The translations under genes were made by a program, and so were the position numbers. A stretch of DNA of 64,000 nucleotides from assembly GCF_005503555.1 (NCBI RefSeq), contig NZ_SCNG01000001.1, positions 1,116,001-1,180,000 on the forward strand, read 5' to 3'. The notes beneath the pieces were generated by a model. It did not search any database. It was not told where the DNA came from and worked only from the letters and a program-made list of their open reading frames with translations. Below, one piece after another: positions 8,706-61,670 of this stretch; position 1 is the first letter of the stretch, and each line of letters opens with the position of its first letter. The DNA comes from Rudaea sp. 3F27F6 (GTDB taxonomy: Bacteria > Pseudomonadota > Gammaproteobacteria > Xanthomonadales > Rhodanobacteraceae).

Positions 8706-10481
8706 CTACGGTTTCGTGTAGACCACCTTGCCGTCGAAGATTGTGTAGTCGATCCTCGTCTTGAGCAGCTTCTCCGGCGGCCCGGCAAGAATGTCGTCGG
8801 AGAGCACGACGAGATCGGCCAGCTTGCCCGCGGCGATGCTGCCCTTGATGTCTTCCTCGTGCGAGGACCATGCCGGATTGATCGTGTAGGCGGCGATCGC
8901 CTCCTCGATCGTGATCGCCTGCTCGGGATGGAACACCTTCGTCGCGTCCGAGTGCGACGCCTCTTTTCGCGTCACCGCCATGTAGATGTTGCGCAGCGGA
9001 TCGTAGGTCGCGAGGCTGGCCTTGTTGAACGGGCCCGGCAGGTCGGAAACGATGTTGAGGCGCAAACCGTCGTCGATCATCGTGCGCCAGGCGAACGCGG
9101 ACTTCGCGCGCTGCGCGCCGAGAATCGCTTCGAGCGTGTCGGGATCGCGCATCATATGATCCGGCGTGATGTCGGCGACGAGGTGCATCGCACCCGCGCG
9201 CTTGAGGTCGGCCGGCGCCGGATACCAGACGTGGATCAGGCGATCGCGGCGATCGCGCGGCCGGCGCGGTTCGCCGTTCGCCTTGACCGCATCGGCATAC
9301 CAGCCGACCAGTTCGTGGATGCCCTTGTCGCCAATGATGTGGGTGCCGATGTCGTAACCGGCGCGGTCGGCTTCGACGATCTTTTTCGCCACCGCCGCCT
9401 CGCCCATGAAGCGGTAGGCCCAGTCGCCCGGCAGGCCCATCGTGTCCTTGAGCGGCTCGAACATCAGGCCGGCGTCGCCGAACACCTTGAGCGCGCCGTA
9501 GCGCACGAGCGCATCGCCCGAGCCCGGCGTGATCCCGATCGAGGCGAGCTCGCTCCAACTGTCGAGCGGCAGGAACGCGTAGACGCGCAGGCTGAGTTGG
9601 CCGCGCTTTTTCAGTTCCTCGAAAATGCGCCGGTCGGAATAGCTGCGCTCGACGTAGGTCGGATAGATCTGCCGCTGCGAAATTTCGTCGTCGCGGGTGA
9701 TGTCGGCGATCGAGGTGATACCGACCGCGTTGAGCTGCGCCTCGACGCCGCGCGCGCCGATCAGCTTCTGTTCGCGCGTCGCCGGCGGCATGATTTTTTC
9801 CATCGCCTCGCCGGCGCTGCCGTAGAGCAAGCCGTTGAGCGCGCCGGTCTTGGCGTCGCGGCCGTAGCGGCCGTTGCGCGGGTCGGGCGTCTTCGCCGTG
9901 AGGCGGGCGAGTTGCAGAGCTTTGCTGTTGGCGAACCAGACCCGATCGTAGCGGCGCAGCAGCACGGGATGGTTCGGCGTCAGCTTGTCGACCGCGGCGA
10001 GATCGGGCTCGAACGCGACGAACGCACTGGCGCCGCCCTGCCTCGCATGTGTGCCCGCGGCAAAGTCGCTCCAGTCGCCGCCGGTGATCCAGATGCCGGC
10101 CGGCACGCGCGTGACGACTTCGGCGAGACGCTGCAGCATCAGCTCGGGCGTGTTCACGTCGATCAGGCGCACCTGGAAGTACCAGTCGGTCGCGTTCTCG
10201 AAATGCGTATGTGCATCGTTGAATCCGGGCAGGACGAGGCGGCTCTTGAGATCGATCGTGCGCGTATCCGCGCCGCGCAGTGCGAGCACTTCGGCGTCGC
10301 TGCCGACCTTGACGATCTTGCCGCCGGCGACAGCGACCGCCTGCGCGACGGGCTGCTTCGCCTCGACCGTCCATACCTTGCCGTTGTGCAGGATCAGCTC
10401 GGCCGGCGCCGCGGCAAACGCGGCCGCGCAAGTCAGACTGGCCGCCGCGGCGGCGAAACGAATCAGCGTGCGTAGCTTCAT
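8706..10481 (-). CDS. secreted YtcJ-like amidohydrolase
   Basis: 591 aa from ATG 10481. A signal peptide is clear (MKLRTLIRFAAAAASLTC, then AAAFA-AAP), predicting a periplasmic enzyme. The amidohydrolase metal motif is in LPGFNDAHTHFENA. Further blocks are ITGGDWSDFAAGTHAR, DIGTHIIGDKGIHELV and ADITPDHMMRDPDTL, and a C-terminal beta-sandwich block KLADLVVLSDDI, all typical of the YtcJ/Amidohydro_3 group, which hydrolyses amide or carbamate-like bonds. The substrate is unknown. It is divergent from the aminotransferase gene with a strong operator between them (10587-10614), shared with three other promoters in this island. Confidence 0.9.
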   Translation of the reverse strand: MKLRTLIRFAAAAASLTCAAAFAAAPAELILHNGKVWTVEAKQPVAQAVAVAGGKIVKVGSDAEVLALRGADTRTIDLKSRLVLPGFNDAHTHFENATDWYFQVRLIDVNTPELMLQRLAEVVTRVPAGIWITGGDWSDFAAGTHARQGGASAFVAFEPDLAAVDKLTPNHPVLLRRYDRVWFANSKALQLARLTAKTPDPRNGRYGRDAKTGALNGLLYGSAGEAMEKIMPPATREQKLIGARGVEAQLNAVGITSIADITRDDEISQRQIYPTYVERSYSDRRIFEELKKRGQLSLRVYAFLPLDSWSELASIGITPGSGDALVRYGALKVFGDAGLMFEPLKDTMGLPGDWAYRFMGEAAVAKKIVEADRAGYDIGTHIIGDKGIHELVGWYADAVKANGEPRRPRDRRDRLIHVWYPAPADLKRAGAMHLVADITPDHMMRDPDTLEAILGAQRAKSAFAWRTMIDDGLRLNIVSDLPGPFNKASLATYDPLRNIYMAVTRKEASHSDATKVFHPEQAITIEEAIAAYTINPAWSSHEEDIKGSIAAGKLADLVVLSDDILAGPPEKLLKTRIDYTIFDGKVVYTKP

Positions 10482-10586
10482 CTCGACTTCTCCACGACTT
10501 TCGATTGCGCGAGGATGGCCTCCCTGCGGACCGCGCGCGGCGGATCGAACGGACCCGATCGCTGTGCCTGTTCCCAATTCGTCTAG

Positions 10587-10614
10587 ATTGTATTATTGTC
10601 AATAATAATGCAAT
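10587..10614. promoter_or_regulatory. GntR-type operator site 1 (divergent amidohydrolase/aminotransferase promoter)
   Basis: Left half ATTGTATT (10587-10594), 12-nt spacer, right half AATGCAAT (10607-10614). The spacer contains its own inverted repeat, so a 17-bp palindrome TATTATTGTCAATAATA sits at the centre. The site is in an AT-rich island within very GC-rich DNA and has the same half-sites and spacing as 11856-11883 and 19271-19298. It lies 105 bp before the amidohydrolase start and 103 bp before the aminotransferase start. Confidence 0.8.
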
Positions 10615-10717
10615 TATTTGTCGTGTGCTGGGAGTCTGCGCACGACGCATCGGCGGCCAAGGCCTGCCAGGGATGGGCATACGGTCCCGCCGCCAGATCG
10701 GCCAGAGGAGAGTTTGC

Positions 10718-11818
10718 GTGCGCTACGTCCGGATGCCCATCGAAGTCGAGTCGCCCGAGGAATACGGCTATGCGCGTATCCGCTACAACCTCTCGGAAAG
10801 TTCGGTCGCCGACCGCAAGCTGTCCGACCTCGGCTTGGCCGTCCCCGATCTGACCTTACTCTACGGCGAACATCGCGGCCGCGAACGCCTGCGCGCGCTG
10901 ATCGCGGCGCAAGGCTGCGGCCTTGCGCAGGACGACGTGCTGATCACCACGGGTGCGGCCGGCGCGCTGTTCATCATCGCCACCGCGCTGCTCGGCACCC
11001 ACGACCATCTCGTCGTCGTGCGCCCCAACTACGCGACCAATATCGAGACGCCGCGCGCGATCGGCTGTGCGACGACCTACGTCGAACTGAATTTCGACGA
11101 CGGCTTCCACATCGACCTCGACAAGGTCGCGGCCGCCTTCACTCCGGCAACAAAGATCCTCAGCGTAACCTGCCCGCACAACCCGGCCGGGGTCATGTGC
11201 AGCGAGACGGAACTGCGCGCGCTGGCCGAACTGGCACAGCGCAATGGTGCTTACCTGCTCGTCGATGAGACTTACCGCGACCTGTCGCTCGACGGCGCGC
11301 TGCCGCCGGCCGCTTCGCTCGGCGCGAACGTCATCGGCGTGGCCTCGCTGTCGAAGGCCTACGGCGTGCCGGGCATCCGCCTCGGCTGGATCGCCACGAC
11401 CGACAAGAAACTGCAGGAAATCTTCCTCGCCGCGAAGGAGCAGATCAGCATCTGCGGCAGCGTCATCGACGAGTGGGTCGGCGAACAGATCATGGAGAAC
11501 CGCACCGCGATCCTCGAACCCGTGCTCGCGGAAATGCGTCGCCGCCGACAACTCGTCGCCGGCTGGATCGCCGGCGAGGAACTGCTCGAATGGGTACCTC
11601 CGGCCGGCGGCGTGGTCTGCTTTCCGCGTATGCGCGCCGCACCCGCAGGCGGCACCGACGCGTTCTACCGGCGCCTGCTCGACGTACACGGCGCCTACGT
11701 CGGCCCTGGCCACTGGTTCGAGATGCCGGACAATTATTTCCGCCTCGGTTACGGCTGGCCGACGGCCGCCGAACTCGAAGCGGGCCTCGGCGCGATCTCG
11801 GCTGCATTGCGCGGCTGA
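10718..11818 (+). CDS. PLP-dependent class I/II aminotransferase
   Basis: 366 aa from GTG 10718, chosen because AGAGGAGA (10704-10711) is well spaced before it; ATG 10733 (MPIEVESPEEY) is the alternative. The fold-type I signature is complete: TTGAAGALF cofactor loop, CPHNPAGVM with the Asn that holds the PLP oxygen, LLVDETYRDLS with the Asp that pairs with the pyridine N, SLSKAYGVPGIRLGW with the Schiff-base Lys and phosphate-binding Arg, and FRLGYGW with the carboxylate-binding Arg. The amino donor cannot be told from sequence. Its promoter carries operator site 1, so it is probably co-regulated with the amidohydrolase. Confidence 0.88.
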   Translation: MRYVRMPIEVESPEEYGYARIRYNLSESSVADRKLSDLGLAVPDLTLLYGEHRGRERLRALIAAQGCGLAQDDVLITTGAAGALFIIATALLGTHDHLVVVRPNYATNIETPRAIGCATTYVELNFDDGFHIDLDKVAAAFTPATKILSVTCPHNPAGVMCSETELRALAELAQRNGAYLLVDETYRDLSLDGALPPAASLGANVIGVASLSKAYGVPGIRLGWIATTDKKLQEIFLAAKEQISICGSVIDEWVGEQIMENRTAILEPVLAEMRRRRQLVAGWIAGEELLEWVPPAGGVVCFPRMRAAPAGGTDAFYRRLLDVHGAYVGPGHWFEMPDNYFRLGYGWPTAAELEAGLGAISAALRG

Positions 11819-11855
11819 GAAGTGCAGCGACGCGCGGTTTCGCGGCCAAAACACG

Positions 11856-11883
11856 ATTGCATTTTATTTTCTCTAAATGCAAT
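11856..11883. promoter_or_regulatory. GntR-type operator site 2 (upstream of alpha/beta hydrolase)
   Basis: Left half ATTGCATT (11856-11863), 12-nt spacer, right half AATGCAAT (11876-11883). This copy is a perfect inverted repeat that extends by one base on each side (ATTGCATTT / AAATGCAAT). It lies 46 bp before the ATG of the hydrolase at 11930, in AT-rich DNA 38 bp after the aminotransferase stop. Confidence 0.8.
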
Positions 11884-11929
11884 TTTTCACAAATAACCCG
11901 ACATTGATAAAGACGAGACGAGTAGCGAC

Positions 11930-13627
11930 ATGAACAAACGCCCCTCCACCGCGATCCTGCTCGGCCCTCTGCTGGCTTCCCTGCTGCAGCCGCATGCGCT
12001 GTACGCGCGCGACGGATCGACGCCGCCAGCGCGCGGTGAAATCTTGCGGCCTGCAGATCCTGTGGTGCCGCCGTTCGAGTGCGAAGCGCGCGTCGGCTAC
12101 GACCGCGACCTCGTGCTGCCGGGTTACCTGCTGCCGACCTCGGCCGGCGCACGCACCTGCATCCCGTTCACGAGCACCGCGGCGCACGCGCCGGCCGGCT
12201 ACAAGGGCGATTACTACGTCGACGAATTCAGCGACGCCAAACTGCGCGAGCGCTGGCAGGCGTGCAAGGCGGACAAGGCCTGCTACGACCGCGTCTATAA
12301 ACAGGTCATGGCGCGCCATCCGCCGAACAAGGAATACAACGACGCCGATCCGCGCCACCGCTTTCTGCTCGGCAAGGTCGAGGAGAAAGGCGGCGACACC
12401 GACCTCAAGACCGTGCGGCGTCCGGCGTTCTTCGCCGCCGCGCCGTACAACGAGCCGATCGCCGCGGCCGACGCGTCGACCTACATCGTCGAATTCACCG
12501 CGCCCGCGGAGCCGTACGAGCGGCTGCACAAGAACCTCAGCGACGATATCAGGCTGCGCGGCTGGTACATCCGCGGCGCCGGCGTCGACGACGGCAAGGG
12601 CGGCAAGCGGCGCGCGCTGATCGTCATGAGCGGCGGCGGCGGCGATCGCGTCACCGCCGTAGACGATCCGGCCGACACGCTCTACTCGATCGACGCGAAG
12701 ACCGGCGAAAGCGTGCTCAACAATTACCCGAGCAAGACCACGGGCGCGAAAGGCCAGGCGGCGTGGCGGCGCGTGCAACATAGTCTGCTTCAAGCCGGCT
12801 TCGACGTGCTCGCCTTCGATCGCCGCGGCATCGGCGTATCGGGCGGCTTCAGCGATACGAATACTTTGCAGCAAGGCCGCGACCTGCTCGCCATTCTCGC
12901 CAGCCTGCGCACCGGCAAGGGTATGCGCGCGCTGACGCCGAGCGGCGATCTGCAGCAGGGCCGCGCCGCAGCGAGCGCGCTGCGCGGCGGCGCACCCGAC
13001 GCCGGCCTGCCCGTGCTGCTGCTCGGCAATTCGCGCGGCACGATGGCGACGTCGTGGGCGATGACGATGAACTTCGACAAGGACTGCAGCTACGACCTGC
13101 CCACCATCGCCTGCAAACCGGCTGCCGGCGACCGCACGATCAAGGGCGCGATCCTCGTCGCCGAATTCTCCGCGGGCGCCGGGCATGTGCCCGCGCAGAC
13201 CAGCGCGGTCGACGACGGCCGCGGCCCGGGCAAAGACCGCGGCCTGTTCATCGGCGGCATCGAGGTCGAGCACAACATCGTCTTCTTCCCGAGCTCAGCA
13301 ACGCTCGCCGGCATAAGCAAATGGCCGAGCGCATTCTTCGCGCGCGGCCTCTGGTGCTATGCGAGCGGACTCGAAGGCACGATCGATTCGTACCACCGCG
13401 TGAAGGGACTCAAGGATCTCGTCGTCGTGCGCGCACCGCATCCCTACGAAACCTGGCCCGAGGAAGAACAGAAGCGCATGCAGGAACGCATGATCGCCTA
13501 CGCGCAGGCCGTGGTGCTCCGCCGCAGCGAAATCCCGGGACGGCGCACTTGGTCGAACATGAAGGAACTCGTGGCGACTTCGGGCGATGTCTGGGAGCCG
13601 TCGACGCACCCGACGCTCAAGCCGTAG
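11930..13627 (+). CDS. secreted alpha/beta-fold hydrolase, substrate unknown
   Basis: 565 aa with an N-terminal signal peptide (MNKRPSTAILLGPLLASLL, cleavage near ALYA-RDG). The central part has an oxyanion region VMSGGGGDR, then DVLAFDRRGIGVSGG, and a nucleophile elbow LLLGNSRGTMATSW with Ser in GNSRG. A late GLWCYASGLEGTID and HPYETWPEEEQKRMQER may hold the catalytic His region. The N-terminal third (about residues 30-190), with a FECEARVGYDRDLVLPGY block, is not a domain I recognise. It is an esterase- or peptidase-type periplasmic enzyme by fold, controlled by its own operator site 2. Downstream lie the 197-bp tandem repeats. Confidence 0.75.
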   Translation: MNKRPSTAILLGPLLASLLQPHALYARDGSTPPARGEILRPADPVVPPFECEARVGYDRDLVLPGYLLPTSAGARTCIPFTSTAAHAPAGYKGDYYVDEFSDAKLRERWQACKADKACYDRVYKQVMARHPPNKEYNDADPRHRFLLGKVEEKGGDTDLKTVRRPAFFAAAPYNEPIAAADASTYIVEFTAPAEPYERLHKNLSDDIRLRGWYIRGAGVDDGKGGKRRALIVMSGGGGDRVTAVDDPADTLYSIDAKTGESVLNNYPSKTTGAKGQAAWRRVQHSLLQAGFDVLAFDRRGIGVSGGFSDTNTLQQGRDLLAILASLRTGKGMRALTPSGDLQQGRAAASALRGGAPDAGLPVLLLGNSRGTMATSWAMTMNFDKDCSYDLPTIACKPAAGDRTIKGAILVAEFSAGAGHVPAQTSAVDDGRGPGKDRGLFIGGIEVEHNIVFFPSSATLAGISKWPSAFFARGLWCYASGLEGTIDSYHRVKGLKDLVVVRAPHPYETWPEEEQKRMQERMIAYAQAVVLRRSEIPGRRTWSNMKELVATSGDVWEPSTHPTLKP

Positions 13628-13664
13628 TTTTTAATCTACAGATTAAAGAAGACCTGGTCCGCTT

Positions 13665-14262
13665 CGAGGTCGGCCGGGATTCTCCCTTCTCCCCCTGGGA
13701 GAAGGCGGCGCGAAGCGCCGGATGAGGGAAGAGCGTCACGACTATTCCAGCCCCTCACGCATGCGAGGCTTTTCCCTCATCCGCCTCCCGGTACCTTCTC
13801 CCGATGGGAGAAGGGTTTCTCCATAAATTCTTAGCGCAACTCGACTTGGACCGCTGCCTTGATCGGTCGACCAAGATCTTTCCTTCTCCCTCTGGGAGAA
13901 GGTGGCGCGAAGCGCCGGATGAGGGAAGAGCGTCCCGACTATTCCAGCCCCTCACGCATGCGAGGCTTTCCCCTCATCCGCCTGCCGGCACCTTCTCCCG
14001 GTGGGAGAAGGGTTTCTCCATGAATTCCTAGCGCAATTCGACTTGCACCGTCGCCTTGATCGGTCGAGCGGGATCTTCCCTTCTACCTCTGGGAGAAGGT
14101 GGCGCGAAGCGCCGGATGAGGGGAGTGCGTCGCAACTATTCCAGCCACTCAGCTCATGCGAGGCTTTTCCCTCATCCGCCTGCCGGCACCTTCTCCCGAT
14201 GGGAGAAGGGTTTGTCCGTGGATTCCTAGCGCAATTTTGACTTACACCGTCGCCTTGAGCGA
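13665..14262. repeat. tandem array of three 197-bp hairpin-rich repeats plus a truncated fourth
   Basis: The block CTGGGAGAAGG recurs at 13695, 13892 and 14089, exactly 197 bp apart, and flanking text (GCGCGAAGCGCCGGATGAGGG, then CCCTCATCCGCCT..., then ATTCCTAGCGCAA.TCGACTT) repeats with it. The start of a fourth unit runs to about 14262, just before the gabT stop. Each unit folds back on itself: GGGAGAAGGTG...CCGGATGAGGG pairs with CCCTCATCCG...CACCTTCTCCC. There is no coding potential of note; short frames crossing it are repeat artefacts. It fills the 643-bp gap between the convergent hydrolase and gabT genes and may act as a bidirectional transcript end. Confidence 0.88.
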
Positions 14263-14270
14263 ATGATCGC

Positions 14271-15575
14271 TCAAGCCGCCTTGCCGATCGCCGACGTCAG
14301 CTCGCGCAAACCGTTCTCGATGATGCCAAGGCCTTGATCGACGAGTTCGTTTGCCGCGGTCAGCGGCACGAGGATGCGGATGACGTTGCCGTAGATGCCG
14401 CAGGCGAGCAGGATCAGGCCGTGCTGCAGCGCGTACTTGACCAGGTTCAGCGCAAGCGCGGCATCGGGCTTGCCGTCCACGGTGAACAGCTCGAACGCGA
14501 CCATGGCGCCTAAGCCGCGCACGTCGACGATCGCGGGGAATTCTTTCTGCAGGGCGTGCAAGCGCGTGGTCAGATGCTCGCCGAGCACGTGCGCGCGTTC
14601 GAGCAGGTTTTCTTCCTCGAACGTGCGGATCACCGCCAGCGCCGCGGCGCAGGCGAGCGGGCTGCCCGCGTAGGTGCCGCCGAGTCCGCCCGGCAGCGGC
14701 GCGTCCATCACCTCGGCGCGACCGACCACGGCCGACAGCGGAATGCCGCCGGCCAGCGACTTCGCCGTGGTGATGAGATCGGGCACGACGCCGGAATGTT
14801 CGATCGCGAACCACTTGCCGGTGCGGCCCGCGCCGGTCTGGATTTCGTCGTCGATCAGCAGGATGCCGTGTTTATCGCACAGCTCGCGCAGCCAGCGCAG
14901 GAACTCGAACGGCGCGACATAGAATCCGCCCTCGCCCTGCACGGGCTCGATCACGATCGCGGCGACGCGCGCAGGCTCGACGTCGTTCTGGAAGATCGTT
15001 TCGAGCGAGGCTTTCGCGTCGTCGATCGACACGCCATGCAGCGCGTTGGGAAAGCGCGCGTGGAACACTTCGCCCGGAAACGGCCCGAAGTTGAGCTTGA
15101 ACGGATTGACCTTGCCGGTCATCGCGAGCGTCATCAGGGTGCGGCCGTGGTAGCCACCGGTGAACGTGATCACCGCCGAGCGCTTGGTCGCGGCGCGCGC
15201 GATCTTGACCGCGTTCTCGACCGCTTCGGCGCCGGTCGTCAACAGCACCGACTTCTTGGCGAAGTCGCCCGGCGCGAGTGCATTGAGTTTCTCGGCGACC
15301 TCGACGTAGTTGTCGTGGGCGACGATCTGGAAACAGGTGTGGGTGAAGCGCGCGAGCTGCTCTTGCACCGCTTCGACGAGCTTCTCGTGGCGGTGGCCGG
15401 TGTTGAGCACGGCGATGCCGCCGGCGAAGTCGATGTAGCGGCGGCCTTCGATGTCCCACAGCTCGGCGTTGTCGGCACGCGCAGCGAAAATCTCGTGGGT
15501 CTGCTTGACGCCGTTGGCGACCGCGGCGCGGCGGCGCTGCATCCAGCCGCGGTTGTTGGAAGTGGTTTGGTCCAT
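14271..15575 (-). CDS. gabT: 4-aminobutyrate--2-oxoglutarate transaminase
   Basis: 434 aa, class III aminotransferase of the GabT group. Visible are the cofactor loop TTGAEAVENAVK, GGYHGRT, EPVQGEGGF, LLIDDEIQTGAGRTGKWFA, the Schiff-base Lys272 in TTAKSLAGGIPLSAV, and GGTYAGSPLACAAAL. GabT moves the amino group of GABA (and often 5-aminovalerate) to 2-oxoglutarate, giving succinate semialdehyde. It is the last gene of a probable operon: binding protein, S9-like hydrolase, duplicated-domain protein, gabT (27 bp after the previous stop). A succinate-semialdehyde-type dehydrogenase is at 60222-61670, far away. Confidence 0.93.
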   Translation of the reverse strand: MDQTTSNNRGWMQRRRAAVANGVKQTHEIFAARADNAELWDIEGRRYIDFAGGIAVLNTGHRHEKLVEAVQEQLARFTHTCFQIVAHDNYVEVAEKLNALAPGDFAKKSVLLTTGAEAVENAVKIARAATKRSAVITFTGGYHGRTLMTLAMTGKVNPFKLNFGPFPGEVFHARFPNALHGVSIDDAKASLETIFQNDVEPARVAAIVIEPVQGEGGFYVAPFEFLRWLRELCDKHGILLIDDEIQTGAGRTGKWFAIEHSGVVPDLITTAKSLAGGIPLSAVVGRAEVMDAPLPGGLGGTYAGSPLACAAALAVIRTFEEENLLERAHVLGEHLTTRLHALQKEFPAIVDVRGLGAMVAFELFTVDGKPDAALALNLVKYALQHGLILLACGIYGNVIRILVPLTAANELVDQGLGIIENGLRELTSAIGKAA

Positions 15576-15602
15576 AAGGGTCTCTACGAGAAAACGGTTC
15601 GA

Positions 15603-16394
15603 TCAGCGCGCGATCAGCTCGTCGGCGACGACGGGCTGCAGTTCCTTGCGCACGCCCTGCTTGTTGTCGGCGATGGCCTTCCATTCCGAATTCTGCTTGA
15701 GGCGCTCGCGCACCTTGGCCACGGTCACGTCGCGCGCGCCGAGGCCGTCCTCGCTCGCGTACTCGTAGACGAACATCGCGCTCCACGGCCGCCCGGCCGC
15801 ATAGCGCGAGAGATAGAAGCCGTAGCCCGACAGCACGCCCTCTTCGATCCAGCCGTCGGTCTGCGCGAGCACATAGGCGTCGACGTATTTGATGTACTCG
15901 TTGACCGAGACGAGATAGTCGTAGGGAATCATCAGATAGACCGGCGGCTTGCCGTTCTTCGCCGGCTTCGACTTGTTGCGCATCAGGTCGGCGACTGTGG
16001 TGTGGATCGCCGTGGTCAAGGCGAGCGCCGCCGCATTGAGGCCGGACGGATGCGCGGATTCGATCTGCGCCCAGCGCGCGGTGCCGTTTTCGGCGGCGAG
16101 GGTGACGACGGCGAGCATGTCCCAGTTGTCGGAATCGATGTAGCGGTTGAAGTAGACGTGGTAGTCGGCGATCGCGCCCTCGCGCTTCCACTGGGCGAAA
16201 TCCTTGAGGCCGGCGCCGAGCATGTAGCTGCGCAGTTTTTCGCGGTTTGCCGGCGCCGTGTGGTAAGCGACGATCAGGCTGCGCGGTCCGCTCATGCGCG
16301 GATCGGGCTCGGCGGCTCGCGCGGGCATCTGCGCGAGCAGCAGGAACAGGGCAAAAAACAAGGACAAATATACTTTTGCAAATTTGCAATTCAC
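15603..16394 (-). CDS. secreted protein with an internal duplication (dimeric alpha/beta-barrel-like), unknown function
   Basis: 263 aa from a GTG start; GGAG lies 8-9 nt upstream of it and no ATG fits better. A signal peptide is evident (hydrophobic VYLSLFFALFLLLAQ, cleavage near ARA-AEP). Two halves align with a constant offset of 113 residues: W69/W182, EG72-73/185-186, Y78/Y191, Y81/Y194, RY84-85/197-198, W91/W204. The pattern (short helix, WxxEG turn, aromatic beta strand) resembles tandem dimeric alpha/beta-barrel (NIPSNAP/ABM-like) domains, but I do not recognise a named family. It sits between the S9-like hydrolase and gabT in one operon, so a periplasmic role in the same catabolic pathway is likely. 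Confidence 0.7.
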   Translation of the reverse strand: MNCKFAKVYLSLFFALFLLLAQMPARAAEPDPRMSGPRSLIVAYHTAPANREKLRSYMLGAGLKDFAQWKREGAIADYHVYFNRYIDSDNWDMLAVVTLAAENGTARWAQIESAHPSGLNAAALALTTAIHTTVADLMRNKSKPAKNGKPPVYLMIPYDYLVSVNEYIKYVDAYVLAQTDGWIEEGVLSGYGFYLSRYAAGRPWSAMFVYEYASEDGLGARDVTVAKVRERLKQNSEWKAIADNKQGVRKELQPVVADELIAR

Positions 16395-16423
16395 GGCGAA
16401 TCTCCGGAGATTGGGTGGTATCC

Positions 16424-16456
16424 CGTCCTGCCCGCATGCTCCCGGCGGGCAGGACG
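16424..16456. other. intra-operon hairpin between two genes
   Basis: A perfect 12-bp stem CGTCCTGCCCGC / GCGGGCAGGACG (16424-16435 and 16445-16456) with a 9-nt loop lies in the 76-bp gap between the hydrolase stop and the start of the next gene. No U-tract follows on either strand, so it is more likely an mRNA-stabilising or attenuating element, or a REP-like repeat, than a classical terminator. Confidence 0.7.
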
Positions 16457-16470
16457 AGCGTCTTTATCGG

Positions 16471-17541
16471 TTACGGCTTCAGATACTTGCCGAGGAACTC
16501 GAAGCAGCGCTGCATGGCATCGCGCTGCTCGGGCGTGTCGCCGTCCATGAAGATGTGGCCGCCCGGTGCGTTGTCGTAAATCTTCGACTCGAACACCTTG
16601 CCTTTGGCCTTGAGCACGTCGAGCAGACGACCGGTGTGCAAGTCATACGGCGCGATCTTGTCGCCCTTGGTCGCGATCACGAGCAGCGGCGCCTGGATCT
16701 GGTCGACGTGATTGATCGGCGACACATCCATGTACGCGGGCAGGTTCTCGTCCGGCAGCTTGCCCTTGAAGTGGGCGCTTTCCTTCGCCACTTCCCGGCG
16801 CCGGTATTCGGGCTTGTAAGCCATGTAGGCAACGAAGTCGGCGAGGCCGACGATGTCGATTCCCACGGCGAAGCGCTTCGGCTCTTTCTCGAGCGCAAGC
16901 AAGGTGACCATGCCGCCGCGGCTCTGGCCGAGAATGCCGAGGCGCGCCGGATCGACATAATCGAGACCGGCAAAATACTCGGCCGCGGCGAGCACGTCGG
17001 CAGTGTCTGTCACGCCGTACTCGTTGACGTAGTGGTTCGCGCCGTAGCCGCGGCTGCCGCGGTATTCAGGGAAGATCACCACGTAGCCTTTTGCTACTGC
17101 CGCATCGATAAGCTGAAACCAGCGCCAGTCGAAGCGCTCGTGGAAGCCGCCGTGGACCATGACGATGCCCGGATACTTCTTGCCCGCTTCGGGTTTGACC
17201 GGAGTGAAAATATAGCCCGGGATCAAGCTGCGGTCGGCGCTCGCGAAGGCGACACGCTTGAGGCGCACGCGCTCGCCGTACTCCTGCATAAAGGTCAGCG
17301 TCACGATGCGCTGTTCCTGCTCGTAGAGCGTATGCGTGATCACGTCGATCTTCGTGTTCAGATCGTCGGAGTCGGGGTTGATGAACTTGTCGAGGTCGCC
17401 TTCCTTGCCGCCCTTTTTCTCGACTGCTTCCTTCTTCGGCGCCTTGGCGTCGTCGTTGTCCTTGGCCGCAACGGAGCCCGCGGCGACGAGCGCACCGAGC
17501 GCGAATGCCCAACACGCGATGATGGGTTTGGCTATTTTCAT
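16471..17541 (-). CDS. secreted S9-like prolyl oligopeptidase/alpha-beta hydrolase
   Basis: 356 aa from ATG 17541, preceded by a good GGAGGAAG site. Its ATG overlaps the stop of the binding-protein gene (ATGA, 17538-17541), so translation is probably coupled. A signal peptide is present (MKIAKPIIACWAFALGALV...VAA-KDN), then a Lys-rich linker. The hydrolase core has the oxyanion block IVMVHGGFHERFDW, FPEYRGSRGYG, nucleophile elbow LGQSRGGM, catalytic Asp in ATKGDKIAPYD and His in APGGHIFMDGD, as in the peptidase S9 C-terminal domain. The N-terminal beta-propeller of true prolyl oligopeptidases is absent, so peptide or ester substrates are both possible. Confidence 0.85.
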   Translation of the reverse strand: MKIAKPIIACWAFALGALVAAGSVAAKDNDDAKAPKKEAVEKKGGKEGDLDKFINPDSDDLNTKIDVITHTLYEQEQRIVTLTFMQEYGERVRLKRVAFASADRSLIPGYIFTPVKPEAGKKYPGIVMVHGGFHERFDWRWFQLIDAAVAKGYVVIFPEYRGSRGYGANHYVNEYGVTDTADVLAAAEYFAGLDYVDPARLGILGQSRGGMVTLLALEKEPKRFAVGIDIVGLADFVAYMAYKPEYRRREVAKESAHFKGKLPDENLPAYMDVSPINHVDQIQAPLLVIATKGDKIAPYDLHTGRLLDVLKAKGKVFESKIYDNAPGGHIFMDGDTPEQRDAMQRCFEFLGKYLKP

Positions 17542-19211
17542 TTTGTCTTCCTCCCCGAAACGGATCTTGCGCGGAAATCCGGCGTCGAGCCTGCCACCGG
17601 ATCCTGTCGGAAACCTGAAAACGGCACCGCGGCCGCAGCGGTCGCCGGTCTGTCGATGCGGCGCACGTTCCACAACCGCTCATGGGCGACGCCCCACGGC
17701 CGGAAGCCGTCGAGATCGCGCTTGATCGCAACGACGTCGGCCGGGCAATAGAGAACGACGAGCGGCGTGTCTTCGAGCATCAGCGCATGCAGTTTGTCGA
17801 ACAGCGTCTGGCGCTCGCCGCGGTCGGCGGTCGCGCCCGCGGCGGCGAGCAACTCGATCGCCTGCGGATCGTCCCAGACCTTGCGCTTGCTCTTGTTCTT
17901 GTCGCCAAGCATCGCGTCGTAGCTCAGGTACGGATCCGAGCGCGAGGTGTAGCTGAACGATATGAGCTGGTAATTGCCGCTCTGGTAACGTTCGAGCGCG
18001 GTCGCCCACTCGGTGACTTCGAGTTCGATGCGGATGCCCGCTTCGCGCGCCATCGACTGGATCATGATCGACTGGTCGTACATGTCCGGATAACGGCGGT
18101 TGGTGACGAGCTTGATCTTCTCGCCCCGGTAGTTCGACTCGGCGAGCAACTGCTTTGCGCGTGCGAGGCTGAACTCGTAGCTCTTCTTCTGCGCCGCGGA
18201 AAAGTACGGACTCGACACCGGCACGATCGATGCGCTGGCGACACCGGTGCCGCCCGAAGCGATCTCGGCGATCGCATGCGTGTCGAGCGCGGTCGCCAGG
18301 GCGAGACGAAACTTCGCATCGGCAAGGATCGGATCGCGCGTCTGCATCAGCAGCGCGTTGACGCCGAGCAGCGGCGCACTCTTCAGCACGACCTGCGGCA
18401 ACTTCTTGATCTGCGCGAATTCCGACACCTGCACGATCGGCAGCACGTCGATCTGGCCCTTGATCAGGGCGACGCGGCGCGCGGCGTCGTCGCGGATGAA
18501 CAACCAGCGCAGCTTCTGCGCGTAGGCGATCTTGCCGCCGGCGTAGCCGTCGGGCGGCCCGCCGCGCGACGCGTAATCCGCAAACGCGGCCAGCTCGATG
18601 TATTCGCCGCGCCTCCAGGTATCGAGCCGGTACGGGCCGGTGCCGATCGGCGATTTCCACGAGCCGTCGGCGTTCACCGAATCGCGATGGACGATCGCAC
18701 TCGCACCGCAGTGCAGCGCGGCCATCTGGGTCAGCAGCAGCGGCGCGGCGCGGTTGAGGCGGAACACCACCGTGCGCGGATCGGGCGCGTCGATCGATTC
18801 GATCTTGAGTCCGCGGCTGCCGTCGAAGTCGGCGAGGCAGGTCCACATCGTCTTCGGATCGAGATAGCGGCGCCAGCTCCAGATCACGTCGTCGGCTGTC
18901 AGCGCAGCGCCGTTGTGGAACTTGATGCCCTCGCGCAGATGGAAGGTGTAGGTCTTGCCGTCGTCGGCGACGTCAATGCTTTGCGCGAGCAGCGGTGCCG
19001 GCGCGCCGTCCTCGCGGTAGGCGACGAGCCCTTCGACGATATGCATCATCACCGAGTCGGTATTGCCGTCGCGGTTCACGCCGGGATTGGTCGTGCGGAT
19101 ATCCGAATTCATCGCGACGACGATCGTGCCCTCCGGCGTCACGTCCTGCGCCTGCGTGCGCACGGCGGCGAGCAGGAAAAAAGCGAGCAGGAAAGGAAGA
19201 CGGGATCGCAT
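17538..19211 (-). CDS. ABC transporter substrate-binding protein, family 5 (oligopeptide/dipeptide type)
   Basis: 557 aa from ATG 19211 (MRSRLPFLLAFFLLAAVRTQA signal peptide). It has the SBP_bac_5 blocks DGKTYTFHLREGIKFHNGAALTADDVIWSW, SPIGTGPYRLDTWRRGEYIEL, FRLALATALD and WATALERYQSGNYQL. Such periplasmic proteins deliver peptides, glutathione, nickel or opines to a DppBCDF-type permease. No permease gene is adjacent; a DppC and a fused DppDF gene are at the far right of the window. It heads the operon ending in gabT. Operator site 3 lies 59 bp before the start, between it and the divergent GntR gene. Confidence 0.92.
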   Translation of the reverse strand: MRSRLPFLLAFFLLAAVRTQAQDVTPEGTIVVAMNSDIRTTNPGVNRDGNTDSVMMHIVEGLVAYREDGAPAPLLAQSIDVADDGKTYTFHLREGIKFHNGAALTADDVIWSWRRYLDPKTMWTCLADFDGSRGLKIESIDAPDPRTVVFRLNRAAPLLLTQMAALHCGASAIVHRDSVNADGSWKSPIGTGPYRLDTWRRGEYIELAAFADYASRGGPPDGYAGGKIAYAQKLRWLFIRDDAARRVALIKGQIDVLPIVQVSEFAQIKKLPQVVLKSAPLLGVNALLMQTRDPILADAKFRLALATALDTHAIAEIASGGTGVASASIVPVSSPYFSAAQKKSYEFSLARAKQLLAESNYRGEKIKLVTNRRYPDMYDQSIMIQSMAREAGIRIELEVTEWATALERYQSGNYQLISFSYTSRSDPYLSYDAMLGDKNKSKRKVWDDPQAIELLAAAGATADRGERQTLFDKLHALMLEDTPLVVLYCPADVVAIKRDLDGFRPWGVAHERLWNVRRIDRPATAAAAVPFSGFRQDPVAGSTPDFRARSVSGRKTK

Positions 19212-19270
19212 GGCGGAGTCGGTGAATGGAGCCTGCAGAGAGCGTCGCCGGATACGAACGACGCATCGAT

Positions 19271-19298
19271 ATTGTATTAGATGATAGTAAAATGCAAT
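19271..19298. promoter_or_regulatory. GntR-type operator site 3 (divergent binding-protein/GntR promoter)
   Basis: Left half ATTGTATT (19271-19278), 12-nt spacer, right half AATGCAAT (19291-19298), in an AT-rich patch. It lies 59 bp before the binding-protein start on the minus strand and 118 bp before the regulator ATG on the plus strand. Its position upstream of the only GntR gene in the island suggests autoregulation as well as control of the transport operon. Confidence 0.82.
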
Positions 19299-19416
19299 AC
19301 ACTTATGCCGCGCCATCGCTGCGCATGGTGCTGCGGCAGGCATGCCGCGCACGGGCCGGCCGGGGCGCACGCTATACTCGCGCGCAGCCAGGTTCACTAC
19401 TAGCAAAGGAAGCCGG

Positions 19417-20364
19417 ATGCAGGACGAGCACGCTCCCCAACCCAGCTCGCTGCAAATCGAGATCGCCAACCAGATTATGGAAATGATCCGCAGCGGCAGC
19501 GTCGCGCCGGGCGAACATTTGACCGAGGCGGCACTGGCCAAGCGCTATGGCGTGTCGCGCTCGCCGGTGCGCGCCGCGCTGAAGATGCTGCAGGACCGCG
19601 GCTACCTCGAAGCGCGTGCGAACGCCGGCGTGTTCGTGTCCAAGCGCGCGCCGCGCATGCGCATGACCGCGCTCGAAAATCCGAACCCGACCGCCGAAGA
19701 CCTGTACCGCTCGATCATCGCCGACCGCGCCAGCGGCAAGCTGCCGAAGGCCTCGTCGGAAACCGAATTGATGGCGCGCTACGGCGCGCCGAAAAGCGTG
19801 CTGATGCACGCCCTGCTGCGGCTCACGCGCGAAGGCCTGATCCGCCGCCGGCGCGGCCACGGCTGGCAGTTTCTGCCCGGCCTCGATTCCGAAGAAGCGC
19901 TATACGAAGCTTATCGCTTCCGCATGATCATCGAATGCGCCGCGCTGCGCGAGCCGAGCTTCAAGGCCGTGCCCGAAGAACTCGCCGCGGCGCGCCGCCG
20001 CTACGAGGATTTCCTTGCGCGCAGCCCGCGCGCGCAGACTTCGTCGGCGTTCTTCGAGATGAACGCGGCATTCCACGAAATGTTGATGCGCTTCTCCGGC
20101 AACCGCTACATCCTGCAGGCGATGCAGCAGCAGAACCAGTTGCGCCGCTTCGAGGAGTTCTCGAGCTATTCCGGGCCGAACCGCAACGTGATCGAGTCGT
20201 GCAAGCGCCTGCTGCAGATCATCGCGGCGATCGAAGCGGGCGACACCGCCTTCGCCGAAGCGCTGATGCTGCACCACCTCAAGATCGCCAGCTCGTTGTC
20301 GATCGGCCGCCGCCACGCGCGGCCGCCGGCTGCCGGCGATGCGGACGATCATCTTTCGCCCTGA
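19417..20364 (+). CDS. GntR family transcriptional regulator with two winged-helix domains and an FCD-like ligand domain
   Basis: 315 aa from ATG 19417, with AAAGGA at 19405-19410 as ribosome site. The first winged helix spans about residues 10-78 (EHLTEAALAKRYGVSRSPVRAAL is the classic GntR recognition region). A second, more divergent one spans about 92-155 (SETELMARYGAPKSVLMHAL...GLIRRRRGHGWQF). The rest (about 160-300) is an FCD-like all-helical domain, but the usual acidic residue before FHEML is Asn and the expected EH motif reads ESCKRLL, so metal binding may be altered. It probably binds the four ATTGYATT/AATGCAAT sites in this island, including one upstream of itself; that is inference from proximity. 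Confidence 0.88.
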   Translation: MQDEHAPQPSSLQIEIANQIMEMIRSGSVAPGEHLTEAALAKRYGVSRSPVRAALKMLQDRGYLEARANAGVFVSKRAPRMRMTALENPNPTAEDLYRSIIADRASGKLPKASSETELMARYGAPKSVLMHALLRLTREGLIRRRRGHGWQFLPGLDSEEALYEAYRFRMIIECAALREPSFKAVPEELAAARRRYEDFLARSPRAQTSSAFFEMNAAFHEMLMRFSGNRYILQAMQQQNQLRRFEEFSSYSGPNRNVIESCKRLLQIIAAIEAGDTAFAEALMLHHLKIASSLSIGRRHARPPAAGDADDHLSP

Positions 20365-20807
20365 TTTCCTTCGAACGCTAGGCGGCTTGCCGGTGCGCGC
20401 GGATCGAGCGCGCGCGTAGCGTCGCGCTGCATCGCGACCCGGCTTGCTCGATCGCTAGACCAAGCAGACCGAAGAGCTTCAACCTTGGAGAACGCAGAAA
20501 GCACAGCGAAGATCTGCAATGTTCATCGTTGTTTTCTTTCTCCGCGTTCTGCGCGCATCGATCTTTTGCTCGTTTCGACTTCACCGCACGCAGGATCGGC
20601 AAAGCGGGGCGCGCAATCCGGCGCTCGCCGTTTCCCGTGAAATCCACAACACGCCCCCCGCCCTCGCGCGGATGACGGACAGCAATCGCTTTCGGCAGCG
20701 CTCTTCACCGGGTTCCCCGGAGCTGCCGACGCGAGCGGACTGATCTCGCACAGGAATCCCGTTTGCGCTCGCCGCAGCTGCCGGGCGTGGCCTGCGCTTT
20801 CGATCAA
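20365..20807. other. gene-free region upstream of class III aminotransferase
   Basis: No gene is supported here. Around 20480-20580 is an AT-richer stretch (TTGGAGAACGCAGAAAGCACAGCG... and TTTCTTTCTCCGCGTTCTGCGC) whose halves are loosely complementary. It resembles the degenerate stretches near 300-360 and 22370-22410. The remainder shows nothing I recognise until the operator at 20808. Confidence 0.4.
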
Positions 20808-20834
20808 ATTGTATTTTTCGTTTTAAAATGCAAT
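20808..20834. promoter_or_regulatory. GntR-type operator site 4 (upstream of class III aminotransferase)
   Basis: Left half ATTGTATT (20808-20815), 11-nt spacer, right half AATGCAAT (20827-20834). The half-sites are the same as in the other three sites but the spacer is one base shorter, so this site may bind differently. It ends 30 bp before the ATG at 20865, a position suited to repression by blocking the promoter. Confidence 0.75.
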
Positions 20835-20864
20835 CATCTCGACCGTACCCGATTCCAAACCGAG

Positions 20865-22211
20865 ATGGCCGCGATGAATTCTCCGACCCACGACGATCAA
20901 CCTGCGGCTGCAGGCACCCGCGCCTACTGGATGCCGTTCACCGCCAACCGCCGCTTCAAGCGCGATCCGATCCTGTTCGACCGCGCCGAGGGCATGTACT
21001 ACTACACGCCGTCCGGCGAGAAGGTGCTCGATGCGATGGCCGGCCTCTGGTGCGTCAACGCCGGCCACGGCCATCCGCATATCACGCAGGCAATCGCGAA
21101 ACAGGCCGCCGAGCTCGACTACGCGCCGTCCTTCCAATACGGCCATCCGCGTGCGTTCGAGCTTGCCGAGCGCGTCGCCGCGCTCGCGCCGCCGGGCATC
21201 GACCAAGTGTTCTTCACCAATTCGGGCTCGGAAGCGGTCGACACCGCGCTCAAGATCGCCCTCGCCTATCACCATGCCAAAGGTCAGGCCGGACGCACAC
21301 GGCTGATCGGGCGCGAGCGCGGCTACCACGGCGTCGGCTTCGGCGGCGTCTCGGTCGGCGGCCACGCCGGCCACCGCAAGCCGTTCGGCAACCTGCTCGC
21401 GAGCGTCGATCATCTGCCGCACACCTACAACCGCGCCGAGACCGCGTTCACCACGGGCGAGCCGGCCTGGGGCGCGCATCTCGCCGACGACCTCGTGCGC
21501 CTCGTGCAACTGCACGACGCTTCGACCATCGCCGCGGTCATCGTCGAGCCGGTCGCCGGTTCAACCGGCGTGCTGATTCCGCCGGCCGGCTATCTGCGCC
21601 GGCTGCGCGAAATCTGCGACCAGTACGGCATCCTGTTGATCTTCGACGAAGTGATCACGGCGTTCGGCCGTCTCGGCCGCGCGTTCGGCGCAGATTATTT
21701 CGGCGTCGTCCCCGACATGATCACCTGCGCCAAGGGCCTGACCAACGGCTGCGTGCCGATGGGCGCCGTGCTCGTGCGCGGCGGCGTGCACGACGCGCTG
21801 ATGCAGGGGCCGCCGGCGGCGATCGAACTGCCGCACGGCTACACCTACTCGGGCCACCCGCTCGCCTGCGCGGCCGGCCTCGCGGCGCTCGACGTCTACG
21901 CGCAAGAAGGCCTGTTCGCGCGCGCCGCGGCGATCGCGCCGGCATTTGCCGATGCGGTGCATTCGCTAAAGGGACTGCCGCACGTGGTCGATATCCGCTG
22001 CATCGGCCTGATGGCCGCGATCGACTTCGAGCCGATACCGAGCCAGCCCGGCGCGCGCTCCTACGCCTGCCATCGCGCCTGTCTCGACGCGGGCGTGGCG
22101 ATCCGCATGGCCGGCGACGGCATCGTGCTGTCACCGCCGCTGATCATCGAACAGGAGCAGATCGAACGGCTCGCCGCGGTGCTGCGCGAAGCGATCGCGA
22201 AGCTCGATTGA
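20865..22211 (+). CDS. class III omega-aminotransferase (beta-alanine--pyruvate type)
   Basis: 448 aa from ATG 20865; ATG 20874 (MNSPTHDD) is equally possible, as neither has a strong ribosome site. N-terminal YWMPFTANRRFKRDP is typical of beta-alanine/omega-amino acid:pyruvate transaminases. Further blocks are TNSGSEAVDTALK, ERGYHGVGFGGVSVGG, EPVAGSTGVLIPP, LIFDEVITAFGR, the Schiff-base Lys in TCAKGLTNGCVPMGAV and HGYTYSGHPLACAAGL. The enzyme would transfer the amino group from an omega-amino acid or amine to pyruvate. It carries its own copy of the island operator directly upstream. Confidence 0.92.
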   Translation: MAAMNSPTHDDQPAAAGTRAYWMPFTANRRFKRDPILFDRAEGMYYYTPSGEKVLDAMAGLWCVNAGHGHPHITQAIAKQAAELDYAPSFQYGHPRAFELAERVAALAPPGIDQVFFTNSGSEAVDTALKIALAYHHAKGQAGRTRLIGRERGYHGVGFGGVSVGGHAGHRKPFGNLLASVDHLPHTYNRAETAFTTGEPAWGAHLADDLVRLVQLHDASTIAAVIVEPVAGSTGVLIPPAGYLRRLREICDQYGILLIFDEVITAFGRLGRAFGADYFGVVPDMITCAKGLTNGCVPMGAVLVRGGVHDALMQGPPAAIELPHGYTYSGHPLACAAGLAALDVYAQEGLFARAAAIAPAFADAVHSLKGLPHVVDIRCIGLMAAIDFEPIPSQPGARSYACHRACLDAGVAIRMAGDGIVLSPPLIIEQEQIERLAAVLREAIAKLD

Positions 22212-23519: not shown

Positions 23520-23532
23520 TGCGAGGCAGACG

Positions 23533-60221: not shown

Positions 60222-61670
60222 TCAGTACGCCAGGCTCACCGACTTCGTCACGAGGAAAGCGTCGAGCCCTTCGATCGCCCCTTCCGAACCGTAGCCCGAC
60301 GCCTTGACCCCGCCGAACGGCGTTTCCGGATACGAAATCTTGCAGGTATTGATGCCGATCATGCCCGCTTCGAGGCCCTCGGCAAGCGCGTGTGCATTAC
60401 GCAGCGAGCGCGTGAACGCATACGCGGCAAGACCGTAGGGCACGCGGTTCGCGCGCGCGACCGCTTCGTCAAGCGTCTTGAACGGCGTCACGCCGATCAC
60501 CGGGCCGAACGGCTCGTCGCGCATCAGCTTGGCCTCGTCGTCGAGATCGGCGACGACGCTCGGCGCGAGGAAGGCGCCGTTCGCGTCGGCCGCCGGCCGG
60601 CCGCGCAAGATGCGCGCGCCACGCGCCTTGGCGTCGTCGAGAAAAGCCTGCACGTCGGCGACGCGGCGCGTGCGCACGAGCGGGCCCATCGCCGTGTCCG
60701 CGGCGAGGCCGTCGCCGAGTTTGAGCGCGAACGCAGCCTTGGCGAAGGCATCGATGAAGGCTTCGTAGAGATTTTCCTGGACGAAGAAACGCGTCGGCGA
60801 GATGCAGGTCTGGCCCGCATTGCGGAACTTCGACGCGATCAGCAGCGGAATCGCCGCATCGAGATCGGCATCGTCGAAAACAAGCACGGGCGCCTGGCCG
60901 CCGAGTTCAAGCGTGAGCTTCTTTATGCCCTCGGCGGCAAGGTGAGCGAGGACGCGACCGACGCGCGTCGAGCCGGTCAGCGAGACCTTGCGCACGACAT
61001 CGCTCGCGATCAGATGTTCGGAAATCGCCGGCGCATCGCCGTAGACGACGTTGACGACACCGGGCGGCATGCCTGCGTCGATCAGCGCCTGGGCGAGCAG
61101 TAGACAGGTTAGCGGCGTCTCTTCGGCCGGTTTGACGATCAGCGGGCAGCCCGCGGCGAGCGCGGCGGCGATCTTGTAGCCGGGATTGCGCGCCGGGAAA
61201 TTCCACGCGGCGAACGCGGCGCTGACCCCGACCGGTTCGTGCAGCACTTGCTGCTGCAGATTCGGCGCGCGCGGCGGAATGATGCGGCCGTAAGCACGCA
61301 CGCCTTCCTCCGCGAACCAGTCGTACATGTCGGCGGTGATCTGCACCTCGCTGCGGGCTTCGGCGAGCGGCTTGCCCTCTTCCTGGGTGAGCACGCGCGC
61401 GATCGTCTCGATGCGCTCGCGCATCAGCGCCGCCGCGCGGCGCAGTATCTGGCCGCGGTTGAACGCCGGCGTCGCGCGCCAGAGCGGGAACGCCTTCTGC
61501 GCCGAGACGAGCGCATCGTCGAGATCGGCCGCCGACGCACCGGTATAGCGCGCGAGCGTGGCGCCGTTGGCCGGATTGACGAGTTCGACAAGCGCCTCGC
61601 CGGTGCCGCCGCGCCAGACGTTGTCGATCAGTTGTTTCGGTTGCCGGCAGAGTTCGGGGAGTTCGTTCAT
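60222..61670 (-). CDS. NAD(P)-dependent succinate-semialdehyde-type dehydrogenase
   Basis: 482 aa from ATG 61670, which overlaps the stop of the ABC ATPase gene (ATGA). ALDH blocks: GVSAAFAAWNFPARNPGYKIAAALAAGCPLIVKPAEETP, SLTGSTRVGRVLAHLAAEGIKKLTLELGGQAPVLVFDDADL with the catalytic Glu, the catalytic Cys in FRNAGQTCISPTRFFV, and the GabD-like end GINTCKISYPETPFGGVKASGYGSEGAIEGLDAF. GabD-type enzymes oxidise succinate or glutarate semialdehyde. Co-transcription with a peptide/opine-type ABC transporter suggests that it processes a product of the imported compound. GabT of this window would make its substrate. Confidence 0.9.
   Translation of the reverse strand: MNELPELCRQPKQLIDNVWRGGTGEALVELVNPANGATLARYTGASAADLDDALVSAQKAFPLWRATPAFNRGQILRRAAALMRERIETIARVLTQEEGKPLAEARSEVQITADMYDWFAEEGVRAYGRIIPPRAPNLQQQVLHEPVGVSAAFAAWNFPARNPGYKIAAALAAGCPLIVKPAEETPLTCLLLAQALIDAGMPPGVVNVVYGDAPAISEHLIASDVVRKVSLTGSTRVGRVLAHLAAEGIKKLTLELGGQAPVLVFDDADLDAAIPLLIASKFRNAGQTCISPTRFFVQENLYEAFIDAFAKAAFALKLGDGLAADTAMGPLVRTRRVADVQAFLDDAKARGARILRGRPAADANGAFLAPSVVADLDDEAKLMRDEPFGPVIGVTPFKTLDEAVARANRVPYGLAAYAFTRSLRNAHALAEGLEAGMIGINTCKISYPETPFGGVKASGYGSEGAIEGLDAFLVTKSVSLAY

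Follow-up and report, generated by a model that had tools for sequence, protein, structure and literature searches.

Which protein reads the promoters of a catabolic gene island in Rudaea, and how is it able to do so? The island lies at positions 8706-22211 of a 64,000-nucleotide stretch of Rudaea sp. 3F27F6 DNA (contig NZ_SCNG01000001.1; the whole stretch is called the window) and includes a gene for a GntR regulator. A preliminary description of the window had reported four near-identical AT-rich operators in the island promoters and attributed them to this regulator. The analysis points, with a probability of about 0.7, to a GntR/FCD regulator that carries two winged helix-turn-helix (wHTH) units in tandem, uses a split operator of 27-28 bp, and probably represses genes whose products take up and degrade an amide-linked omega-amino compound.

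Four putative split operators and their conservation

A scan of the window recovered the four sites of the preliminary description at the same coordinates and with the same sequences, with spacers of 12, 12, 12 and 11 bp. No strand is assigned to them.

10587..10614: operator A, ATTGTATT-N12-AATGCAAT, between the amidohydrolase gene (minus strand) and the class I/II aminotransferase gene (plus strand)
11856..11883: operator B, ATTGCATT-N12-AATGCAAT, 5' of the alpha/beta hydrolase gene
19271..19298: operator C, ATTGTATT-N12-AATGCAAT, between the solute-binding protein (SBP5) operon (minus strand) and gntR (plus strand)
20808..20834: operator D, ATTGTATT-N11-AATGCAAT, 5' of the omega-aminotransferase gene

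Operator B is symmetric, and the pattern matches it on both strands. The sites had also been placed in promoters, and the operators do precede the genes named; the start of the amidohydrolase was corrected, since an ATG at 10481, ahead of a signal-peptide-like stretch, appears more likely than position 10577.

The box ATTGYATT occurs eight times on both strands of the window, against 1.27 expected, and all eight occurrences are boxes of operators A-D, with none left unpaired. With spacers of 11 or 12 bp, the window yielded no further place even when three mismatches were allowed. In the whole genome (G000; 5,704,709 bp in 16 contigs), ATTGYATT-N8..16-AATRCAAT matched exactly at operators A-D only, and the reversed pattern gave no match at spacers of 8-16 bp. 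The genome-wide scan proposed earlier thus returned exact sites at the four island promoters and no crowd elsewhere; weaker copies do exist, with 21 places at N12 and 14 at N11 when up to three mismatches were allowed. The four sites had been called very unlikely by chance, and indeed none arose in 100 dinucleotide shuffles of the 64-kb window. An origin by chance or as a mobile repeat is practically negligible, considering the absence of matches in the shuffles and in the reversed-pattern control and the unrelated spacers and flanks of the sites. The spacers of 21 operator sites averaged 75% A+T, compared with 34% in the window.

When 60 genomes including its own were scanned with the exact pattern, five were positive: G000 with four sites, two genomes of the same genus (G002 and G008) with three each, and G045 and G055 with one match each at an 8-bp spacer. 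In a protein search covering 233 genomes of the family, full-length orthologs of the regulator were confined to G000, G002 and G008 (88-89% identity; the next hit had E 7.5e-10). Among the 16 genus genomes, exact sites and ortholog coincide in these three. In a promoter alignment of the three orthologous loci, the boxes stood out as conserved islands and the spacers differed in sequence, their length being kept at 11 bp in operator D and at 12 bp in operators A to C. Operator A is conserved in G002 and has one mismatch in G008; operator B is conserved in G008 and weakened to two mismatches in G002. Both relatives that have retained the genes have therefore kept the motif as well, and their island gene order is conserved at 75-89% identity. 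Single motif matches in G258, G365 and G393 (inside open frames) and in G271 (between two frames) were treated as chance because these four short loci (1.9-3.0 kb) contain no regulator relative and three of the matches are in frames.

A copy of the system was found in Massilia cavernae, a member of the Betaproteobacteria and thus of another class than Rudaea. Its regulator is 51% identical to the window regulator over the best segment and 48% over the 22-sequence alignment described below. With TTGYATT-N12-WATRCAA and at most one mismatch, the Massilia genome gave four matches, and the reversed control gave 0 and 1. Three of the four are located on the regulator's own contig, beside it, and have 1, 2 and 2 mismatches when scored with the full 8-bp boxes. 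The first, the counterpart of operator C, is between a C45 gene and gntR; the second is 5' of a Peptidase_C26 gene, whose product resembles gamma-glutamyl-4-aminobutyrate (gamma-glutamyl-GABA) hydrolase but scores 229 bits, below the model cut-off of 266; and the third is between a propeller/amidohydrolase gene pair and an S9 peptidase gene. The fourth match (contig C23) is at the edge of SBP-like and aconitase-like frames, which were recognised by eye.

Genome uniqueness, kept boxes with drifted spacers, co-occurrence and the Massilia copy support the earlier proposal of one regulon tied to the local GntR protein, to which these split sites presumably belong. It is very improbable that a different transcription factor binds them. 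Gene neighbourhood alone is no proof of binding, but among the annotated genes this GntR is the only regulator common to the Rudaea-type and Massilia loci (others were not searched for systematically), and boxes with this shape are present again upstream of distant homologs.

A regulator with two winged helices

The regulator gene follows operator C:

19417..20364, plus strand: GntR regulator, with a first wHTH at about residues 11-75, a second wHTH at about 93-153 and an FCD domain at about 159-299

The GntR wHTH profile PF00392 matched two stretches of the protein (E 2e-26; 91.9 bits, cut-off 27), and the FCD profile PF07729 scored 65 bits (cut-off 24.3). An AlphaFold2 model from 22 sequences (predicted local distance difference test, pLDDT, 82.7; predicted template modelling score, pTM, 0.60) contained two complete winged helices at residues 11-74 and 93-152, followed by the FCD helices at 159-299. 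Regulators of the FadR/FCD subfamily have one wHTH per chain, a rule that does not hold for the window regulator with its two units in the model. It resembles the subfamily in its N-terminal wHTH with SR(S/T)P(V/I)R, its C-terminal FCD domain, its inverted GT/AC boxes and a site beside its own gene, but adds a complete second wHTH between the first one and the FCD domain. The preliminary description had overlooked both this second DNA-binding domain and the departure of the operator spacing from the FadR-subfamily rule.

A sequence search of the PDB gave no match covering the full length of the protein. The top fold matches of the model were GntR-family regulators with low TM-scores, among them the solved FCD regulators Lar (6ep3), PmiR (7xp1), VanR (6z74), DhdR (9jpj) and McbR (4p9f), whose matched chains are 198-240 residues long (TM-scores by query 0.33-0.44).

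The 22 aligned sequences are 31-89% identical to the window protein. The SR.P motif is kept in the first wHTH, and GHGWQFLP, the wing segment of the second, is nearly invariant. H220 and H287 are also invariant; together with a middle histidine at residues about 265-267, we take them to be the metal-site positions of the FCD domain. Because EHL of the Massilia protein reads RLL at residues about 265-267 of the window protein, ligand or metal binding by its FCD domain may be changed. Across the phylum, 22 tandem-wHTH relatives were found in 20 of 398 genomes, the own genome included, and within one genus 24 proteins in 22 of 80 genomes; an even class-wide draw yielded the own genome only (1 of 369).

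PMC4494728 describes FadR-subfamily sites in which GT and AC are 2 or 3 nucleotides apart (GT-N2/3-AC), with exceptions such as NanR and BioR. The window boxes read G(T/C)-N18-(G/A)C at three sites and have N17 at one, i.e., GT-N17/18-AC, and do not follow this rule. They are centred about 10 nucleotides from the dyad, and PMC4494728 also reports weaker extra boxes 7-12 nucleotides from the site centre. On this analogy, the window operators may share the outer positions of FadR-type sites and lack the central palindrome. The extra boxes described near GntR sites (PMC4494728) also bear on another explanation, in which each 8-bp box is occupied by its own ordinary dimer and the two bind cooperatively, or as a tetramer, so that each operator would be two sites rather than one split site. 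Two strong boxes with centres 19-20 bp apart are compatible with cooperative binding on one face of the DNA, but one box alone does not offer the second AC half on which a classical FCD dimer depends and the window has no box outside a pair, and we regard this arrangement as improbable.

For a tandem-wHTH regulator on a single split operator, we infer the following mode of action. The regulator would bind as a dimer to the 27-28-bp operator, in which two inverted 8-bp boxes, ATTGYATT and AATRCAAT, are 11-12 bp apart. With its canonical SR(S/T)P(V/I)R recognition helix, the first wHTH would be the natural reader of the outer GT/AC boxes, and the second wHTH may lie over the AT-rich spacer, so that four heads would occupy the 27-28 bp. 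When bound at the promoters, the regulator would repress its own gene and the uptake and breakdown set, and a ligand in the FCD domain would release it. The position of a repressor is plausible because the sites are close to the start codons (about 30-120 bp). If true, such four-headed reading would constitute a separate type of DNA recognition among the GntR regulators, a very large bacterial family of which FadR-type proteins make up about 40% (PMC4494728).

Recurrence of the spacing in related loci

Seven Pseudomonas loci (L041-L047) encode a regulator 42-44% identical to that of the window, SBP5 homologs (45-48%), permeases (52-60%) and, in six of the seven, an AptA-type aminotransferase, and have an 8-12-8 operator. 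They differ in the box letters, AATGTTTT, and no C45 or TonB homolog was found in them, nor AptA in L047. The site AATGTTTT-N12-AAAACATT 5' of the binding-protein gene is perfect in five of the seven loci, one letter off in L045 and more degenerate in L042, and a AATGTTTT-N12-AATGCAGA-like site is present 5' of the regulator gene in most of them. L044, the one locus annotated, also encodes an S12-type hydrolase, an aldehyde dehydrogenase and an OprD porin. A looser TGG...N12...AATACCA was seen in L049, L050 and L053-L056, the metagenome-assembled genome (MAG)/Ottowia group, where it lies not at the regulator promoter but 1-3.5 kb away from the gene. No nameable site was found in L057 despite its C45, SBP5 and permease homologs.

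The spacing was then scored with a fixed pattern, NNGYNTT-gap-AANRCNN with at least 5 of 7 complementary pairs, in about 450 bp upstream. Four pattern variants had been tried, a signal appeared only in the two with the TT/AA edge, and the variant requiring at least 5 of 7 pairs was used alone thereafter. In a first held-out set of 21 new loci, a gap of 11/12 was found in 6, every other gap in 0-2, with a shuffle mean of 0.47 and a maximum of 4 (300 shuffles); by 60%-identity clusters, the count was 4 of 14 against 0.54 (maximum 3). In a second held-out set of 21 further loci from one genus, a gap of 11/12 was found in 17 (null mean 0.71, maximum 3), N12 occurring in four of the five loci of the higher-scoring group and N11 in most others. 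Inspection by eye revealed GTAYT-N12-ARTAC common to L091, L092 and L095 and TTGTATT-N12-AAATCAA in L078; of these only L095 matched the fixed pattern.

Several results weigh against the tandem-wHTH, split-operator reading. A gap of 11/12 was absent from 15 of the 21 loci of the first set and 4 of the 21 of the second, and the second set comes from one genus, falls into two score groups that are probably paralogues, and also contains gaps of 9 (6 loci), 5 (4) and 19 (3). The signal is gone when the TT/AA edge is removed from the pattern. The control, loci of 17 other GntR-type genes, gave 1 of 17 and is weak, as several of its stretches are inside a long frame. In an unrestricted scan for inverted repeats with 8-bp arms and gaps of 0-26 bp, run upstream of 23 relatives that represent 42 loci, gap 12 was not enriched (7 loci; null 4.1) and the count had an unexplained peak at gap 16 (10 loci; null 4.4, maximum 8 in 40 shuffles); because of this outcome, the spacing rule rests on box shape together with spacing and not on symmetry alone. 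A sigma-70-like scan found 3 matches against 2.0 in shuffles, i.e., no excess; one overlaps operator C and is directed at gntR, and another overlaps operator B on the opposite strand, directed away from its gene. The co-occurrence in 3 of 16 genus genomes is on its own weak evidence, since G000, G002 and G008 may simply be the closest kin, a weakness that does not extend to the drifted spacers. The structural model, with its pTM of 0.60, represents a monomer without DNA.

The contribution of the second wHTH is the point at which another explanation has to be weighed: the local GntR protein binds, but the wide spacing reflects an unusual FCD dimer, the second wHTH being vestigial or a mere spacer held off the DNA. 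This unit lacks the SR(S/T)PxR helix of the first one, few of its residues reach 90% conservation in 63 relatives (L118, Y122, L133, G147, W150), and the AT-rich spacer could be promoter sequence. On the other hand, the second unit is whole, its columns being filled in 63 of 63 relatives, although this is partly by construction because the relatives were picked with the full-length model; its wing is nearly invariant in the 22-sequence alignment; and the 11-12 bp spacing recurs in distant branches. We consider a vestigial second wHTH unlikely. The balance is tipped slightly towards a broad GntR/FCD branch with a duplicated wHTH, whose four-headed dimers would read about 28 bp, the outer boxes by sequence and the AT-rich middle by the second heads, with spacing held at 11 or 12 bp and the specificity shifting between branches through a few outer-box letters (ATTGYATT, AATGTTTT, xTGGTATT).

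Searches of an open-access library returned no description of a GntR protein with two wHTHs, of split operators or of this regulon; the two helix-turn-helix motifs of PMC11784139 are those of an AraC/XylS protein. The best reading is that this tandem-wHTH, split-operator variant of GntR/FCD control is undescribed. If the tandem-wHTH branch does use GT-N17/18-AC, its regulons escape searches for GT-N2/3-AC and could be detected with the wider spacing rule. The system would also offer a clean test of how a doubled DNA-binding domain alters operator geometry.

Putative regulon and substrate

The other genes of the island are as follows.

8706..10481, minus strand: Amidohydro_3 amidohydrolase with a signal-peptide-like start (PF07969, E 2.9e-74; longest open reading frame to 10577; Massilia homolog 51%)
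10718..11818, plus strand: class I/II aminotransferase (best NCBIfam scores GntC- and VioD-like, both below cut-off)
11930..13627, plus strand: alpha/beta hydrolase-like protein, conserved in G002 and G008, with a signal-peptide-like start; its only Pfam match, to Abhydrolase_6, is weak (E 0.0011) and below cut-off
14271..15575, minus strand: GabT-type 4-aminobutyrate transaminase (TIGR00700, 584.6 bits, cut-off 506.65)
15603..16394, minus strand: protein without a Pfam family, on the same strand and in an apparent operon with GabT; conserved in G002 and G008
16471..17541, minus strand: S9-type peptidase with a signal-peptide-like start (PF00326; longest open reading frame to 17673)
17538..19211, minus strand: peptide-type solute-binding protein SBP_bac_5, i.e., SBP5 (PF00496)
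20865..22211, plus strand: omega-aminotransferase AptA of the beta-alanine:pyruvate type (NF052567, 695.5 bits, cut-off 500)

The minus-strand genes from SBP5 through the S9 peptidase, whose start overlaps the SBP5 stop, and the hypothetical protein to GabT (19211 down to 14271) look like one operon behind operator C. Read in this way, the four sites would cover every island gene. The S9 peptidase has a Massilia homolog with 76% identity over residues 90-400. The two transaminases are above the NCBIfam cut-offs for AptA (beta-alanine:pyruvate transaminase) and GabT, and the best PDB relative of the AptA-type protein is 4b98, a beta-alanine-pyruvate transaminase; no open-access paper linking these enzymes to this operator was found.

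No permease genes are present beside the SBP_bac_5 gene in the island. The right end of the window contains two genes of a peptide permease row:

61667..63520, minus strand: Dpp-type double ATP-binding cassette ATPase (DppDF), the last gene of a C45-DppB-DppC-DppDF row that starts past the window end
63527..64000, minus strand: DppC-type permease, cut by the window end; the gene continues to 64351 in the same numbering

The row of DppDF, DppC, DppB and C45 hydrolase genes, all on the minus strand, is divergent from a TonB siderophore-type receptor gene on the plus strand, and the whole arrangement extends to position 8841 of L063 (68840 in window numbering). The C45 hydrolase scored 289 bits (cut-off 85) and the TonB receptor 320 (cut-off 223.5). 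Between these two genes, 2.45-2.56 kb to the right of the window, there is a weaker pair of operators 85 bp apart, G000:C8:1182452 with two mismatches and G000:C8:1182537 with one. The pair has counterparts in G008 and G002, the upstream one with more than three mismatches in G002, and among the 16 genus genomes the C45 gene, too, is found in G000, G002 and G008. In the seven Pseudomonas loci, homologous permeases adjoin the SBP gene and the related regulator. These arrangements suggest that the permeases at the right end of the window are likely those serving the island SBP_bac_5 and that the row, with the TonB receptor, probably represents the uptake genes of the island. The regulon reading is thus supported and extended to the C45 hydrolase, the peptide permease and the TonB receptor. 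The spacing rule allowed this hydrolase/permease/receptor set, about 45 kb from the island, to be recognised, as well as loci in other classes.

The controlled set would thus comprise the TonB receptor, the peptide-binding protein and its permease, the exported peptidase, amidohydrolase and hydrolase, the C45 hydrolase and three aminotransferases. From AptA, GabT, C45 and the peptidase, amidohydrolase and hydrolase with signal-peptide-like starts, we infer that an omega-amino compound in amide or peptide linkage is taken up, cleaved and then transaminated; the probable substrate is an omega-amino acid of the beta-alanine/GABA type in such a linkage. In this light, the earlier suggestion that the enzymes act on a single imported amino compound in amide or peptide linkage is plausible, and the linked C45 hydrolase, peptide permease and TonB receptor strengthen it. 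A beta-alanyl amide, gamma-glutamyl-GABA and a siderophore-like compound were considered as the substrate and could not be separated.

A one-mismatch operator at L066 5943-5970 (G000:C8:1219942-1219969) is located 5' of a gene for a YncE-like propeller, of which the Massilia locus encodes a homolog (43%); a gene for a 2HCT-family transporter comes next. An inverted-repeat site with two mismatches at L067 6465-6492 (G000:C11:274464-274491), 5' of a DUF481 gene, is kept in G002 and G008 and was not found with up to two mismatches in the other 13 of 16 genus genomes; it is only a candidate member of the regulon.

At 22524-25590, a gene for an NMT1-type binding protein and then one for a PepSY-TM/ferredoxin-reductase fusion adjoin the island in all three genomes, and the pair itself lacks an exact copy of the operator. 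Between the alpha/beta hydrolase and GabT genes, a long intergenic stretch (13630-14270), absent in G002 and G008, contains repeated TTCTCCC...GGGAGAAGG-like segments, which look like a short dispersed repeat in tandem.

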